Positions 29,547 through 36,192 of a stretch of DNA of 36,192 bases are shown piece by piece. The notes under the pieces were generated by a model that saw only the letters and a program-made list of their open reading frames with translations, made no database searches and had not been told where the DNA came from. The stretch is from Deltaproteobacteria bacterium (GTDB lineage Bacteria > Myxococcota_A > UBA9042 > DTJE01). The stretch spans positions 1 through 36,192 of the forward strand of contig JAKPOP010000007.1 of NCBI GenBank assembly GCA_029547805.1, given 5' to 3'. Both the position numbers and the translations under genes were made by a program. Positions within the stretch are counted from its first letter, which is position 1. The number at the start of each line of letters is the position of its first letter.

Positions 29547-29714
29547 AGGCTCGGCGCCATGAAGCCTTCAACGGCGCCCGTCAGGAGTGAAGACCATGAT
29601 CGCTCGTTAGGGCCTTTCCCCGGAGAAGCCAGCCATCCCTTCAGACACGCACCCTCCGCATGACAGAACCCTTCTGGGGACATGGTCTTGCATCGCGGAT
29701 GACGACTGTCCGAT

Positions 29715-29737
29715 GTCATGCAAGCCTCCTGCATGAC
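29715..29737. repeat. 8-bp perfect inverted repeat at the edge of the helicase gene
   Basis: GTCATGCA (29715-29722) and TGCATGAC (29730-29737) are exact complements around AGCCTCC. The repeat begins 12 bases beyond the helicase stop codon. On the plus strand it is followed after several bases by CTTTTCT, a poor T tract. It may be a terminator for either converging gene or a boundary remnant of the acquired segment. Related GCATGAC words recur nearby (for example 29658-29664). Confidence 0.4.
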
Positions 29738-29748
29738 GGGTGACTTTT

Positions 29749-32700
29749 CTAAGATTCCCCTCCGGTTTGCCTTGCAGTCTCGAACCAGCCAGTGTCCGCC
29801 GAGACCCTGTCCGCCCCCTCCCGTCCCAGCAGGATCCTCGCGAGCCGGCGGAAATGCCGCGCCATCGCGTTGCGGTCGCTCAGATGGCCATATGGAATTT
29901 CCAGCACCTCGTAGCCGCGATTGCGGAGTTCTTCACGAATCTCGCGGTCGCGTCTCTGGGTAGCCGGATTGCCGTGGATGTGTCGGCTCATGCCGTCGAG
30001 GTAGATGCAGATACCATCCAACCGTCCGGTCGGGTCTTCATAGAAGAAGTCCGGTTTCGTAGTGCCCAGGGAGAGCCCAAGGTCAATGGGACGCTGCCCG
30101 ATGGGCGATGGGAACCCGGCACTCACGAGCAGCGCCCTCAGGGTCGCCTCGGCGTCGTTCACCGGTGGTTCACCGCGGTCCGTCTCAGGCAATCGCGGCG
30201 TGACAGGGTGCGCAAAGACCAGGGTGTCGCCCCATGTCCGGAGGCGGTCGGAAGCCGTGCTGCGGTTGAGGTGCTGGTGGTAGGCAGCGTTTCTGAAGGT
30301 GAAAAGGCAGTCAATGCACGCCGTCGCGCAGCCGCACTTCTCCACCACCTCAAGCGCCGCCTGGACCACCTCGGGCCACCGGCTCGTCATCTGGTCCAGC
30401 AGGCCCGATCCTCCAGGCATCGGGTCATAGAGCAGGACATCCACCACCGCCGACCCCGGTCGCCCGATGGCAAGGACTTGCAGGTCCTCCAAGTCCATTT
30501 CCAGAATCCCAGACGCGCCCTTTCGCAGGGCCTCGGCGACGCTGTAGGCCTCTTCCCGGCTCGCGCATTCCTTGATGCAAAGCGCGTCAACCACGATATC
30601 GGCGAAGAAACCCACGGACTCGACCCGCCGGCCGCACCGCTCCTGGTGATCCCTCGCGAACTGGTTGCGGTCGGCCTCAGAGGCCAGTGCCGAACGGCTC
30701 TGCCCGCAAACGAGGCACATCGGATATCCCATTCGGTTGGCACCCCTGACAAGCTGAGACGGTCCGACGTTCACGAGACGAAGGTGAACCGAAGAACGGA
30801 GGGAAACCTCTTTCGGACCCCAGTGAAAAGACCGGCCTGCCCCATGGCGGGCCTGCTCGTACCCGAACACCGACACGGGCAACTGGAAGCGGTAGTCCTC
30901 GTCGTCGGTGATGTGCGACTGGTGGGGCAGGTCCACGTCGCAGATCGGGATGGCGGGCAGCGCGCTCGCGCCCAACCCCACCTCCGCGACTGCCAGTCCC
31001 GTCCCGACCTCGACGACGGCCTCATTTCCCACATCTACCTGGAAGATCGTGGGTTCCGTCGCCTCCAGGTGGAAGAAGCGCGGGTAGAAACGATGACCGT
31101 TCACATAGATGAGGTTCCCGGGCACAAACTCGCGAAGTGCCAGCGCCTGTGGCCGACGCAGTTCAAAGTCGCGCAGGTCGGTCCCGTAACGGGGGGCCTG
31201 ATGAAACCCTACAACCGCGCCAATATCCAGCCCGTAGCCGGGCAGGAACCCCTCGGCCGCAAGGACCGAGTACGTGTTGGTGTCGTCATACCCTTCGGCC
31301 TCGCGCCGACGCCTGCTCTCGATCCCCTTGAGTTTCTTGACGAGTCGGTCGCACCGCTGCCTCAGTGCATCCTCGTCAGGGTCGAGCGTGCCCTTGGTCT
31401 CGCGTACCTCATCGAGACGGCGCATCTGGTTGAGAGCCCATTGAAGCCGGCGGGCGAGCCGAGCGGTCACATCGCCCAGGCATTCGGCGAAGTGACCCAC
31501 CTGCATGGCAAGACGGTCAGGCGCGACCACTGCCGCGTCATCTGCCGGCCACCCCTGATCGAACACGGCACCGACGTGATCGACTATCGTTTCCTCGTGT
31601 TTCGCCACAACCGCCGCGAGCGGTGCCGTGTCAAATGGCTCCCGCCGGACATGCCCTGCATGGTCAAACAAGTAGTGCCTGACCTGAGGCGGGAAGCAGT
31701 GACTGAGAACCTCACTCAGCCCTTGCCGGTCCTCCTCGGAAAGCGGGCTGCCGGCCCGCGCCAGCCGAAACAGAACGGTGAGGACAGCCGCATGCACGTG
31801 CTTCTGGACCATCAACTCGTTCTTCAGGTTGAACCTCGGGGGCGTGATCACCCCGCCCAGAAGCCTGGCCGGGTCCGCAAAATATGCCCGGTCGTGGCTG
31901 GCTGTCCGTGCGTAGGTCACGTTGACCGCCATCCGGTGGCGGCGGCCCGCGCGCCCCGCCCTCTGCCAGTAGTTGGAAGGCAGCGGCGGCACGTTGCGCA
32001 TCAGCACCGCGTCGAGAGCACCGATGTCCACCCCGAGTTCCAGCGTCGGCGTGCACACGAGCGTGTTCACCAGGTCGTGTTCCCCCTTGAACGCGCGCTC
32101 GAGGACCTCGCGCTGGTCCGGCGGAATCTGCGCGGAATGCTCCCGCGGCCGGAGCATCGTGAACCCCTTGTCGAGGACCATCAGGTCGTAGTCTTCACCG
32201 CTCTCGGGCTCGTCTCGCAACGTACCGCCGCACCGCCATGCCGTACAGACCATGTGAGGCGTCACACGGACATGGGGACGGCGGCAGGTGTCGCATCGAA
32301 AGACCCCCTTGTGGGCCGCAAGCCTTAGCCTGTCGGCATCCACCTGCCGCACCCCGGCGCATCGGGGCAGGGCGCGATTGCGGGCACCCTTCAAGGTGGC
32401 GGGAGCGAGCAGCCCCAGGTCTTCCGTCAGTAGTCGCCAGAGGTCGTTAAAAAACTCGTCGAGGTGTTCCGCCGGAACCCCGAACCGCCGCGCCAACTGC
32501 CTGGCCTGCGTGTCACCTCGGTCCGAGAGCCACTGCTGAACCCGATTCGGGTCGTCGTCCGGGCCGCGTCGCAGTTTGAGACCCTTTGGTACACCAGGCA
32601 TCAGGGGCAGGTAACCCCGCTGGACCTCGTAGTCCCCGTCCTGCCAGAATCGGGAAAAGATGTCGCCCTCGCGGTCCAACAGGATCCCGCCGCGACGTGT

Positions 32701-35199
32701 GATGTCCAGCAGGGTCGCCACACCTGACACGAGTTCGTCCCGCGATGTGTCGAGCGGCCCCGACCATTTCTCGAAGAACGGCAGGTCAGGCCTGAGTCCT
32801 GCATACTCCACGATCAATCGGCCCCATGGTTCCAGGCCGATCCGCTGGCGCATGCTCGTGGCGACCTCCCGCAGGACCAGGATGCGCAGGAAGCGCTTGC
32901 GCTCCTCCCCGTGGCGGACGCCTTCCGCTTCCTTGCGATGGACGCGCCAGACCTCAGGGACCAGGGCCCGGGACAGGTCGTCGTCGTGATCCAGCAGGTC
33001 GTCCAGGTACGACGTGAGGTCTCCAACCGACACCGGACCCTGGACCAGACGCTCGTGGATCAGGGCGCGCAGCCGGTAGCGGCGAGCGTGGTCCTGCATC
33101 CAGCCCGCCTGAAAGGCGGCGTCCTGGCGGTTGTCCGCAAAGACGAGCAGGCGCTTTCGCTCGGCGTAGTGCAGCATGTTCTGCGCGAGCACGTGGACGT
33201 CGGAAACGGCAACCGCACGGACCGGGCGTGCCGGTTCCCTGTACAGACCCACTCGCTGTCGCCCGATGGCGCCGCATGCCACGCACCTCGTCAGGTATCC
33301 CGGCACGGTATCGCTCTGCCGCAAGACGTAGAGTTCGACCAGCCCGCCCTCCCGTCCGCACCCGTCGCAGCGGGGCCGCTCGGCCGGGTGCAAGGCGCCG
33401 CAGGTGCGGCACAGGTACACCGGCGCCCCGAAGCGGTGGCTCGTCGGATCGGCGCCGTCTGCGCCATTGGCACCCTCTTCGTCAGGATCCTCGGTGACGA
33501 GCCGGTCCACGAGGACGACGCGACAGCCGCCTCTTGCCGCATCCAGGGCGCGCCAGACGACCCGGTCCTCTACCGCCTCGCCTCCCTCCGGCGTCCGGTC
33601 CAGGAATTTGAAGTCCGCAACATGGTGAACAAAGTAGTGCTGCCCGCAGGTGGTGCAGGTGAGGATCGGCAGGCGGAACAGACCTGTGTCGCAAGCGACC
33701 TCGTCCTCGGCCGATAGCCACAACTTGGGTCCCGTGTGTCCCTCGGGGAACGTCACGACCGCGCCGCCGACGCCCCGCACGAACGCGTGGACCACAGGGC
33801 GCAACAGGGGCCGGCCCTCCCTGCGCGACACGGCGCCGAGTGCGAGCCACACCAGAATTTCCTCCTCGGGCACCGGGCGTCCAACAACGCGGGCCAGTTC
33901 CTCAACCAGGTCGTCCAGCCGCCGCGGCGTGGTGAGGGATTCCGCGATCCGGTACACCAGTTCGTTCGCGGCGAGCCGGTCGTAAAGGCTCTCCTGCCAG
34001 CGGGCCGCTTCGAGCCGTGTCCCCGTGAGCGACTGGAAGACGCCCTGGAGCATTCGCACCGCGGATTCGCTCGGGCCATCGCCCTCGACTCCGGAGACCG
34101 CGTCGAGCACCGTGCGGAGCTGGACCGCCGGGTCGCCCGGAAGCGGATCCGGCATCGCGCGCGTGTCGGCCCACATGTCGGTCTCGTACTCCTCACCGAC
34201 GAGTGCAACCGATTCCGCGGGAACACCGAAGAACCGAGCCGCGAATTCCCGGCCGGCCTCTGGACCGCGCTCCGGGTCAGCGATCGTGGCCGACGTGGCG
34301 ACGCAGGCCGTCTCCGTGGGTCCGCGACCGCAGTGTGCCCGCAGGCGCCGGATCAGGCACGCGGTCTCGGCCCCGGTCGCGCCGCTGAAGGTGTGGGCTT
34401 CATCGAAAACCAGAAAGTCGAGTCGGGCCCCGTCGAACAACTCGACGTCCCGCTGGCGGGTGAGCAGCAATTCGAGTTGCTTGATGTTCGTGAGGAGGAT
34501 GCGCGGCTGCATGCCGGGAGTGCGCATCTCGTCCCGGCTGACGCGCTCCTCTGGCGGGTGGACCGCGTGGGTCTGCCGGCTGCGGCGCACTGACTCGAGG
34601 GCGCTCAGGTAGTCCACCCGCGACGACCCGGACGGCAGCCGGATGCCGGGCACGTCCTCGCTTCTTTCGGGTGTCTTCCCCACGTACATGCCGAACGTGA
34701 CGCCTGTGCCGGCGAGCAATTCCCGCAGGCGTCCGAGCTGATCCTCGGCGAGGGCGTTCATCGGGTACACGATGACCGCGACGACCCCCGCCGGGGCGCG
34801 CTGGTCCCGCAGCGTCAGGCACCGGCTGATGATCGGGTACAGGAAGCACTCAGTCTTCCCGGAGCCGGTCCCGGTGGCCACAAGCGCCGTCTTCCCGGCG
34901 GCGATCCCCCGGATCGCGGTCTCCTGATGTCCGTACAGATGCGGATGCGGGGCGAGATGCGCCAGGTGAGGGTGCAGCACGCCTTCGGCGACCAGGTCGG
35001 CCACCCTGGCGCCCTTGCGGAACGATCGGCTGAGGCTGATATACGGCCCCTTCAGCAGCGGCGAGGCCCGCGTCTCCTCGAGGTTCAGGAGGCGCCGCAT
35101 CTGCTCGTGCAGGCCGCGGTCCGCAAAGGGGTACGTGGTGATCTGGTACCGCAGGAAGTCCGCGACGACGCGATCGGCGAAGGTGATTGGGTTCAGCAT
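29749..35199 (-). CDS. Giant SF2 helicase with DUF1998 module and C-terminal Vsr/DUF559-like nuclease domain
   Basis: A 1816-residue multidomain protein. The DEAD/DEAH core has Walker A ATGTGSGKT at 108-116, DEAH at 266-269, SATI at 303-306 and motif VI QRAGRAGRR near 1080. Cys pairs near residues 515 (CTTCGQHY), 600 (CRTCGALH with CDGCG) and later (CDTCRRPH, CLVCGQS) suggest zinc binding. The DUF1998 region runs to about 1630 and ends in CGCATACIDCL. The last 120 residues resemble a Vsr/DUF559-type nuclease: PDFFYED, IYLDGMSRHIHG, then an Asp and GYEVLEIPY. ATG 35199 is chosen because GGGAGG lies upstream and the gene then overlaps the preceding ORF by seven bases. The fusion recalls DISARM DrmA+DrmB and MrfA; an anti-phage role is inferred. 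Codon use differs from the housekeeping genes. Confidence 0.85.
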   Translation of the reverse strand: MLNPITFADRVVADFLRYQITTYPFADRGLHEQMRRLLNLEETRASPLLKGPYISLSRSFRKGARVADLVAEGVLHPHLAHLAPHPHLYGHQETAIRGIAAGKTALVATGTGSGKTECFLYPIISRCLTLRDQRAPAGVVAVIVYPMNALAEDQLGRLRELLAGTGVTFGMYVGKTPERSEDVPGIRLPSGSSRVDYLSALESVRRSRQTHAVHPPEERVSRDEMRTPGMQPRILLTNIKQLELLLTRQRDVELFDGARLDFLVFDEAHTFSGATGAETACLIRRLRAHCGRGPTETACVATSATIADPERGPEAGREFAARFFGVPAESVALVGEEYETDMWADTRAMPDPLPGDPAVQLRTVLDAVSGVEGDGPSESAVRMLQGVFQSLTGTRLEAARWQESLYDRLAANELVYRIAESLTTPRRLDDLVEELARVVGRPVPEEEILVWLALGAVSRREGRPLLRPVVHAFVRGVGGAVVTFPEGHTGPKLWLSAEDEVACDTGLFRLPILTCTTCGQHYFVHHVADFKFLDRTPEGGEAVEDRVVWRALDAARGGCRVVLVDRLVTEDPDEEGANGADGADPTSHRFGAPVYLCRTCGALHPAERPRCDGCGREGGLVELYVLRQSDTVPGYLTRCVACGAIGRQRVGLYREPARPVRAVAVSDVHVLAQNMLHYAERKRLLVFADNRQDAAFQAGWMQDHARRYRLRALIHERLVQGPVSVGDLTSYLDDLLDHDDDLSRALVPEVWRVHRKEAEGVRHGEERKRFLRILVLREVATSMRQRIGLEPWGRLIVEYAGLRPDLPFFEKWSGPLDTSRDELVSGVATLLDITRRGGILLDREGDIFSRFWQDGDYEVQRGYLPLMPGVPKGLKLRRGPDDDPNRVQQWLSDRGDTQARQLARRFGVPAEHLDEFFNDLWRLLTEDLGLLAPATLKGARNRALPRCAGVRQVDADRLRLAAHKGVFRCDTCRRPHVRVTPHMVCTAWRCGGTLRDEPESGEDYDLMVLDKGFTMLRPREHSAQIPPDQREVLERAFKGEHDLVNTLVCTPTLELGVDIGALDAVLMRNVPPLPSNYWQRAGRAGRRHRMAVNVTYARTASHDRAYFADPARLLGGVITPPRFNLKNELMVQKHVHAAVLTVLFRLARAGSPLSEEDRQGLSEVLSHCFPPQVRHYLFDHAGHVRREPFDTAPLAAVVAKHEETIVDHVGAVFDQGWPADDAAVVAPDRLAMQVGHFAECLGDVTARLARRLQWALNQMRRLDEVRETKGTLDPDEDALRQRCDRLVKKLKGIESRRRREAEGYDDTNTYSVLAAEGFLPGYGLDIGAVVGFHQAPRYGTDLRDFELRRPQALALREFVPGNLIYVNGHRFYPRFFHLEATEPTIFQVDVGNEAVVEVGTGLAVAEVGLGASALPAIPICDVDLPHQSHITDDEDYRFQLPVSVFGYEQARHGAGRSFHWGPKEVSLRSSVHLRLVNVGPSQLVRGANRMGYPMCLVCGQSRSALASEADRNQFARDHQERCGRRVESVGFFADIVVDALCIKECASREEAYSVAEALRKGASGILEMDLEDLQVLAIGRPGSAVVDVLLYDPMPGGSGLLDQMTSRWPEVVQAALEVVEKCGCATACIDCLFTFRNAAYHQHLNRSTASDRLRTWGDTLVFAHPVTPRLPETDRGEPPVNDAEATLRALLVSAGFPSPIGQRPIDLGLSLGTTKPDFFYEDPTGRLDGICIYLDGMSRHIHGNPATQRRDREIREELRNRGYEVLEIPYGHLSDRNAMARHFRRLARILLGREGADRVSADTGWFETARQTGGES

Positions 35200-35831
35200 C
35201 TGACAGTACCTCCCGTGGCCATCCGAGGAAGAAATCTGAGAAGCCGCGCCAGGCTGGGGCTGCGCGCTTCGGCGGCGTGGGGCCGCCAGTGAAGGTTCGT
35301 GAAATCGATCAAGGACGTGACATATCCGGGACCAAACCGGGCGCTGGTGCCCTCGGGCGGCAGCAGGGCCTCGCGGATCGACTTGCGGCGCGAACGGCGG
35401 GCGAGTGCGAGCACATGGTCCTTCGGGTCGTCGAGTGCATCCGGGTCGCCGGAGACCCGCGCCGCGGGAACGCCCAAACAGTGCGCCATGGCCTCCCGAT
35501 CCGCGAGCAGCCACGACTCGACGGCCCTCACCGCCACATGGAGGCGCATCCGTGGGGCAGGCGACGGCAGCAGCGTCCTGGTCAGTTTCGGTGCGCACGG
35601 CGCGTCATGGTCGAGGTCCCGCAGTACGAGCCAGCGGGAGAATCGAGCAGCGTTGTTGTACGCGGCAAGCCTGTCGTCCAGCCCAGTCTTCCCGTTCGTG
35701 ATGCACACCGGACCCGGGGTCAATCCGGCCCTGAGTGATCCCCTCAAAGGCGATCGGGGGTCTGCGAAGTCTCGGCAGGGCCAAAAGAAGCCTTCCGGGG
35801 GCACAGCGCGCTGTGTAGCGAGGTTTTTCAT
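35193..35831 (-). CDS. DUF4276/Toprim-like protein, probably N-terminally truncated by an IS
   Basis: A 212-residue ORF. From about residue 45 it matches the pattern I associate with a DUF4276-like, Toprim-related family: GKTGLDDRLAAYNNAA, the acidic DLD at 72-74, VRAVESWLLAD (101-111), DPK (135-137), GPGY (167-170) and SPSLARLL. The N-terminal segment that should hold the Toprim glutamate is missing; residues 1-40 look unrelated and may be read from IS sequence. The ATG has GGAGG six bases upstream, but both lie in the end of the transposase gene, with ATGA overlap. It precedes the helicase with a seven-base overlap. It could still be expressed as a chimera, though it is likely a damaged gene. 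The family name is from memory of its motifs. Confidence 0.6.
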   Translation of the reverse strand: MKNLATQRAVPPEGFFWPCRDFADPRSPLRGSLRAGLTPGPVCITNGKTGLDDRLAAYNNAARFSRWLVLRDLDHDAPCAPKLTRTLLPSPAPRMRLHVAVRAVESWLLADREAMAHCLGVPAARVSGDPDALDDPKDHVLALARRSRRKSIREALLPPEGTSARFGPGYVTSLIDFTNLHWRPHAAEARSPSLARLLRFLPRMATGGTVRC

Positions 35832-36192
35832 ACGACACCTCCGGTGGCCGGGACACCCCTGGGGATGTCCAGATCAAAGGCCAGGCGGGCGAAGCATGAG
35901 AGCCAGGCGAGGGGGAGCCAGCGGACCAGTCGGTGCCCCTTCCAGCCCATCTGGAAAGGGCTATGGGTGCGGGTCCGAACGGTGTTGGCCTTGTAGAGGC
36001 GGTCGAGGCCCTTGGCCTCGATGTAGTGGCCGATCAAGGAGACCAGGAAGTAGGCAGAAGCAATGACCAGGATGAGGCGGTCCAGCCGATCGGGACGATC
36101 CTTCAGACGGTACTCACCGAGGCTCCAGCCGTAACGGGTGCTCTTCTTGTCGCGGAAGACTTCCTCGATGGTGAAGCGGCGTCCGTAGAGAC
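35828..36192 (-). mobile_element. IS4-family transposase, C-terminal part, running off the window
   Basis: An open frame continues from the window edge for 120 visible residues and ends in TGA at 35828. It begins with LYGRRFTIEEVFRDKK, which fits the IS4-family YREK signature exactly: Tyr, two residues, Arg, three residues, Glu, six residues, Lys. This holds the third catalytic acid of the DDE transposase. Downstream are two hydrophobic helices (RLILVIASAYFLVSLIGHYIEA and RLVRWLPLAWLSCFARLAF) and a short tail. Upstream DDE residues are outside the window, so completeness is unknown. The IS end probably lies within 35720-35825, beyond the stop codon. It reads towards the truncated ORF and helicase and may supply their transcription. 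Confidence 0.8.

Follow-up and report, generated by a model that had tools for sequence, protein, structure and literature searches.

The window analysed here (36,192 nucleotides) is the whole of one contig, C26 of 32, in the genome of a Deltaproteobacteria bacterium, and it encodes a giant protein in which a preliminary description had seen a helicase, a DUF1998 region, and a nuclease joined in one chain. This three-way fusion was put forward as a candidate anti-phage effector, with DISARM as the comparison, which raises the question of what system such a chain belongs to. Our answer, held with high confidence, is that the protein is the ArmC of a horizontally acquired ARMADA operon, composed of a BrxHII-like ArmA, a PglX-like ArmB, an AAA and DUF4276 pair, and ArmC itself, and split by an IS4-family element.

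The armC-like Gene and Its Helicase Core

The armC-like gene, coding for a YprA-family helicase with DUF1998 and Vsr-like nuclease domains, is on the minus strand (29749..35199), from an ATG at 35199 to a stop at 29749, and yields 1816 aa, exactly as described before. The mechanical ORF extends further upstream, to a GTG, and the start was set at ATG 35199 because homologues begin at this M(A)LNPI. Seven homologues are near full length (50–57% identity), and a further one, at locus L060, reaches 79%. The gene has a GC content of 0.667 and a GC3 of 0.81, versus 0.726 and 0.94 in the FAD oxidase gene next to it, in agreement with the compositionally distinct segment noticed earlier; the insertion sequence (IS) reported alongside was also found, as a fragment of an IS4-family transposase where the contig ends. 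Just beyond the armC stop, at positions 29711–29735, a short inverted repeat (GTCATGCA...TGCATGAC) is present, which may be a terminator or mark the island's edge.

The DEAD/DEAH motifs read from the sequence were recovered by Pfam as DEAD (74 bits) and Helicase_C (42 bits) matches. The first of these (PF00270) corresponds to RecA1, at about residues 88–285 (34345..34938, minus strand), with a Walker A motif TGTGSGKT at 109–116, DEAH at 266–269, and SAT at 303–305, and the second (PF00271, residues 1021–1087) to RecA2, at about residues 1019–1148 (31756..32145, minus strand), with motif VI (QRAGRAGR) at 1079. The DUF1998-like region was confirmed as the MrfA Zn-binding domain, PF09369, formerly DUF1998 (residues 1555–1632; 30304..30537, minus strand), with 45.9 bits over a cut-off of 24.2. 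Cysteine pairs were also found as announced, only that the count of at least four zinc sites fell short of the seven CxxC motifs present, at residues 515, 597, 611, 639, 969, 1495, and 1628. In a PDB sequence search, the RecA2 region matched YprA (6znp) and the DruE-like 9tu7; the nearest PDB sequence to ArmC was the 2108-aa helicase of 9tu7, which we take, judging by its length, to be E. coli DruE, and 6znp matched at 1e-30.

A YprA-family helicase with a fused DUF1998 is thus present, as in the ARMADA helicases described in 2025 by Bell et al., in which this fusion is followed by a C-terminal Vsr domain predicted to be active (PMC12458937). According to the same description, these helicases have a BrxA-like insert after RecA1, and beta-barrel zinc and MarR-like domains inside RecA2 (PMC12458937); the stretch of about 700 residues bearing CxxC pairs that separates the RecA halves of ArmC appears consistent with such an arrangement.

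A Probable Vsr-like Nuclease at the C-Terminus

As no relevant Pfam family was matched by the last 179 residues of the armC product, the assignment of a nuclease rests on its relatives. In an alignment of 24 C-terminal domains, E47, D80, D98, H105, and D114, which correspond to E1684, D1717, D1735, H1742, and D1751 of the full ArmC, were invariant or nearly so; all five were kept in 23 of the sequences, and the ArmC studied here has every candidate catalytic residue. A profile of these 24 relatives matched 3r3p, a solved Vsr-like endonuclease deposited as 'Mobile intron protein', with an E-value of 2.5e-4; this is presumably I-Bth0305I, a Vsr-like EDxHD enzyme. The match of the same profile to the mismatch endonuclease Vsr (1cw0) was weak (E 1.6), with the conserved 'RD' segment and the helix-1 glutamate lining up in the alignment. 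In addition, single relatives matched the Pfam families REase_MTES_1575 (3.6e-10), DUF559 (6e-7), and Vsr (0.005). The AF2 model of the domain had a pLDDT of 80, and its Foldseek matches were weak (best E 0.095), several of them being restriction-endonuclease-like folds. From the profiles and the E-D-D-H-D residues, with weak structure matches, the domain at about residues 1678–1797 (29809..30168, minus strand) is probably an active nuclease of the Vsr/EDxHD type, as in ARMADA, and the C-terminal nuclease of the earlier reading was upheld on the same grounds.

In many relatives of ArmC (L061, L104, L080, L073, L074, L075, L041, and L105), the nuclease is followed by an S24 (LexA-like) peptidase domain, detected by Pfam in L061 (37 bits) and L104 (33 bits) and by GDSM/GESM motifs in others. 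The ArmC of the window and that of L060 stop short of it. The presence of a protease on a helicase-nuclease hints at regulated cleavage.

One Operon Split across Two Contigs

The genes adjoining ArmC in its closest relatives were used as queries, and both partners were located on contig C28 of the same genome: a BrxHII-like Snf2 helicase gene (C28:6932-9973, 58% to the relative L037) and a PglX-like methylase gene (C28:2058-6890, 52% to L037), both expected in an ARMADA operon. The product of the former scored 646 bits as DrmD and 245 bits as BrxHII in PADLOC; that of the latter scored 77 bits with Pfam Eco57I, and 1536 (REase_MTase_IIG), 450 (DrmMI), and 26 bits (PglX) in PADLOC. Both genes point at the contig end, and downstream of them lie an AAA gene, the initial codons of a DUF4276 gene (about 717–779 of L057, on C28), and the 5' half of the gene for an IS transposase. 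Read in the operon sense, the window opens with the 3' end of a transposase gene of the IS4 family and continues with the rest of the DUF4276 gene and armC. As the contig ends inside the IS, most of the operon is absent from the window.

The IS portion in the window (35731..36192, minus strand) comprises an 18-bp terminal repeat (35731–35748) and the transposase C-terminus (35828–36190; NCBIfam transpos_IS4_2, profile positions 230–318), and runs off the contig. The IS ends on C28 and C26 are matching 18-bp inverted ends with three mismatches, outside both of which lies the 9-bp sequence GGCCGGATT, the target-site duplication, at 35722..35730 (minus strand) in the window and at 712–720 in the C28 copy (L057). 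Part of a further copy of this element was found at a contig end as well (C27:35608-35768, 96% over 161 bp), which accounts for the break of the assembly inside the IS. The adjacency of C28 and C26 is supported by the shared IS ends and target duplication, by the DUF4276 gene lying in two parts, and by the outer flanks, which are neighbours in a same-genus genome. In this genome (G011), which has no operon, the FAD oxidase gene of the C26 flank and the epimerase-like gene of the C28 flank are 160 bp apart, and 8.3 kb beyond the empty site align with C28 at 83%. As the flanks adjoin in G011, about 17 kb were either gained in our genome or lost in G011. The GC3 of the three core genes (0.81–0.84) versus that of the flanking oxidase gene (0.94) adds to this picture, and horizontal acquisition of the operon is part of the best explanation, at the same high confidence as the ARMADA reading as a whole. 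Read from these sequence junctions, an IS4-family element is what cut one operon in two. It sits between armB and armC, so that this copy of armC may be silent or its expression disturbed.

An Embedded AAA/DUF4276 Pair

The DUF4276 portion in the window (35193..35730, minus strand) is the 3' part of the gene, which the IS has separated from the 5' part, and overlaps the armC start by a few bases; the ORF covering it scored 172 bits as HEC-01B in PADLOC, and an intact homologue precedes armC in L043 (L043:2846-3454). In L043 and L092, an intact AAA gene (HEC-01A, 497 bits) and DUF4276 gene (HEC-01B, 197 bits) lie between methylase and helicase. HEC stands for Hma-embedded candidate, a name that comes from a guilt-by-embedding survey (PMC12988326). 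The likeness to HEC-01 consists in an AAA ATPase and DUF4276 pair embedded in another defence operon, whereas here this host operon is ARMADA and not Hma. Both genes are recognisable in our genome but broken: in the assembly, the AAA gene has two frame changes and one internal stop, and the IS divides the DUF4276 gene. The DUF4276 sequence has VEG..D and DLDHD motifs of TOPRIM-like character, and its protein is probably TOPRIM-like. A literature search retrieved no paper naming Druantia and HEC-01, nor DUF4276, TOPRIM, and defense together, and the terms 'TOPRIM', 'DUF4276', 'AAA', and 'accessory' are absent from the main text of PMC12458937.

Distribution and Relatives of ArmC

Relatives were taken as the best 80 loci from a scan of 84,980 species genomes, and include the 79% homologue L060, in a pseudomonadotal MAG. 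Within the close clade, which spans many phyla, the order BrxHII, PglX, any variable genes, and then ArmC was found wherever enough DNA was present. Neither of the findings named beforehand as speaking against a defence role, that is, a C-terminus devoid of nuclease fold or homologues in housekeeping contexts, was obtained, and the suggested look at the homologues' neighbours returned the defence genes BrxHII and PglX.

In a maximum likelihood tree (quick mode, SH-aLRT), built from homologues rather than from the published ARMADA references such as E. coli ArmC, the window ArmC fell in a group with 100% SH-aLRT support, rich in genes linked to BrxHII and PglX, where it joined L060, its nearest sequence, and a Myxococcaceae locus bearing ArmD. 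An Actinomycetota/Chloroflexota/Bacillota group stood apart with 100% support, and in five of the six loci of it that were checked a gene of 1010–1165 aa directly precedes the helicase, the same layout as that of DruH-DruE in M. smegmatis (PMC13316683). No PADLOC match to DruH was obtained in these sister loci, though their layout fits.

In the phylum, matches at E<=1e-30 were found in 32 of 379 genomes, and in seven of these the match was full-length, at 50–57%. No match to armC was found in phage records, and plasmid records gave one, from Synechocystis, with the gene annotated in pieces.

ArmD follows armC directly in L036, L038, L067, and L089, all of the close clade. In our genome no ArmD gene was found downstream of armC, and only weak UvrD-like matches were detected elsewhere. 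In the ArmD-linked homologues L036 and L038, part of the nuclease motif is lost (EDDPE in L036, no DG..H segment in L038), in contrast to published type II ARMADA, described as having an active Vsr.

Alternative Readings

Sharing the helicase architecture and length class of DruE, ArmC had DruE3 as its best PADLOC match (374 bits, over several stretches), and this, together with its nearest PDB sequence, would be expected of a type III-like Druantia helicase working with a DruH sensor, all the more as a Vsr domain is present in some of the Druantia III-like helicases (PMC12458937). This reading is quite improbable, being already largely refuted by the operon: the partners of armC are BrxHII and PglX and not DruH, and homologues with the DruH-DruE layout form the separate, fully supported group, one of them scoring 607 bits as DruE, far above the window ArmC. 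A DruH gene next to the helicase, as in Druantia type III, was looked for and not found, the upstream genes being DUF4276 and then AAA, PglX, and BrxHII, and the other Dru genes are absent here too. In the published accounts, E. coli DruE III ends in two PLD domains (PMC13192584), the Vsr domains of Druantia I and II are predicted inactive, and the three-way fusion exists in Druantia as well, with degenerate or other nucleases (PMC12458937).

That the window holds only the overlapping DUF4276 and helicase genes could point to a two-gene system or to a stand-alone helicase-nuclease effector. We regard this as highly improbable, as the pair recurs within larger PglX-containing operons (L043/L092, L105), only 100 bp separate methylase and helicase in L060, leaving no room for a DUF4276 gene, and armA and armB sit on C28. 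It is just as hard to credit that the protein is a DNA-repair helicase of the YprA/MrfA type without immune role; it belongs to the same family, as its match to 6znp indicates, but its occurrence in the phylum is sporadic, its insertion site is vacant in G011, it has its closest homologue in a pseudomonadotal MAG, and it is linked to BrxHII and PglX in the close clade.

The comparison with DISARM also has its grounds, since there a YprA-like helicase and a DUF1998 module act with an Snf2 helicase and a methylase; it is not the nearest one, ARMADA being closer. DrmA and DrmB are separate proteins in DISARM, versus helicase and DUF1998 in one chain in ArmC. Apart from armC, a complete-looking DISARM operon (DrmA 919 bits, DrmB 292, DrmC 273, and DrmMI 1337, plus an Snf2 helicase gene) lies on C4 of the same genome (about 485.6–499.0 kb, L059), which therefore holds both the split (DrmA/DrmB) and the fused (ArmC) form.

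ARMADA Type and a Possible Mode of Action

The likeness to ARMADA extends over the YprA-family helicase, the zinc motifs, the fused DUF1998, the C-terminal Vsr-like nuclease, and the order BrxHII-PglX-YprA, which occurs in type II and some type I systems (PMC12458937). It differs in the lack of ArmD (RelE-UvrD), the AAA and DUF4276 genes between armB and armC, and the IS4 interruption. Published type I is without ArmD (PMC12458937), and our operon can be placed in type I, or in type II if ArmD was lost; the type is left between the two because the genes are ordered much as in type II but ArmD is lacking. The architecture and the system are already known from the published description (PMC12458937), and the fusion protein studied here is a good new example of ARMADA, not of a new system. 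In that work, anti-phage activity is shown for the E. coli type II system only, in which all four genes, ArmD included, the ArmC Walker motifs, and the ArmB methylase motif are needed, and which protects so that cells survive (PMC12458937). A defence role is strongly inferred for the operon studied here; an anti-phage function is very likely, and the part of the proposal that gave way is the effector acting as a single molecule, as ArmC is encoded by the last gene of a BrxHII-PglX-YprA operon. The PADLOC check advised at the outset did return a defence match (DruE3), yet the 2023 models have no ARMADA label and call the pieces of the operon DrmD, type IIG REase-MTase, and DruE.

In the likely mechanism, ArmB would methylate host DNA, sparing self, as its Eco57I-type methylase domain suggests, and ArmA, a Snf2/RapA-type translocase, may help to find or remodel invading DNA. 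ArmC would load on single-stranded or 3'-tailed DNA, as expected from DruE, which prefers 3'-tailed DNA (PMC13192584), and from MrfA, driven by its two RecA domains under a zinc-rich OB/DUF1998 canopy. ArmA and ArmC would then act on unmarked invading DNA, which the C-terminal Vsr-like domain would nick, judging by its residues and profiles. In our genome, the IS4-family element inserted into the DUF4276 gene that precedes armC. The core ARMADA genes remain open, with their proteins still encoded, the embedded pair is disrupted, and there is no ArmD.

A Possible Cargo Slot between armB and armC

Methylase and helicase were both seen in 31 of the best-scoring 80 loci, many of them from MAGs, and in this count, for which genes were called by a simple method and no control region was included, the gap between them was below 400 bp in 9 and held extra genes in 16, as it does in our genome. 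Varied defence or toxin-antitoxin genes were observed in the gaps of L064, L069, L070, L071, L076, L079, L092, L105, and others, and the families recognised by profile were AbiEi/AbiEii, Drt1a (1059 bits), Fic, SLFN_AlbA_2, HEC-01A/B, and a HEC-03B-like AAA. We somewhat favour the view that the armB-armC gap is a recurrent exchange site, where defence or toxin-antitoxin modules unrelated to one another are traded; these would include AAA/DUF4276, AbiE, the Drt1a reverse transcriptase, Fic, Schlafen-AlbA, and DUF262. A methylation-guided first line would then shelter a second-line, probably abortive module, decayed here while the core is open. The slot is a hypothesis with good grounds behind it, and the counts do not amount to a measured enrichment.

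In conclusion, the locus provides an ARMADA island with clear limits, whose empty site is seen in a genome of the same genus, and which lies outside the experimentally studied group. Annotation models from 2023 break such operons up under the labels DrmD, type IIG, and DruE. The putative ARMADA cargo slot could be mined for new defence modules.
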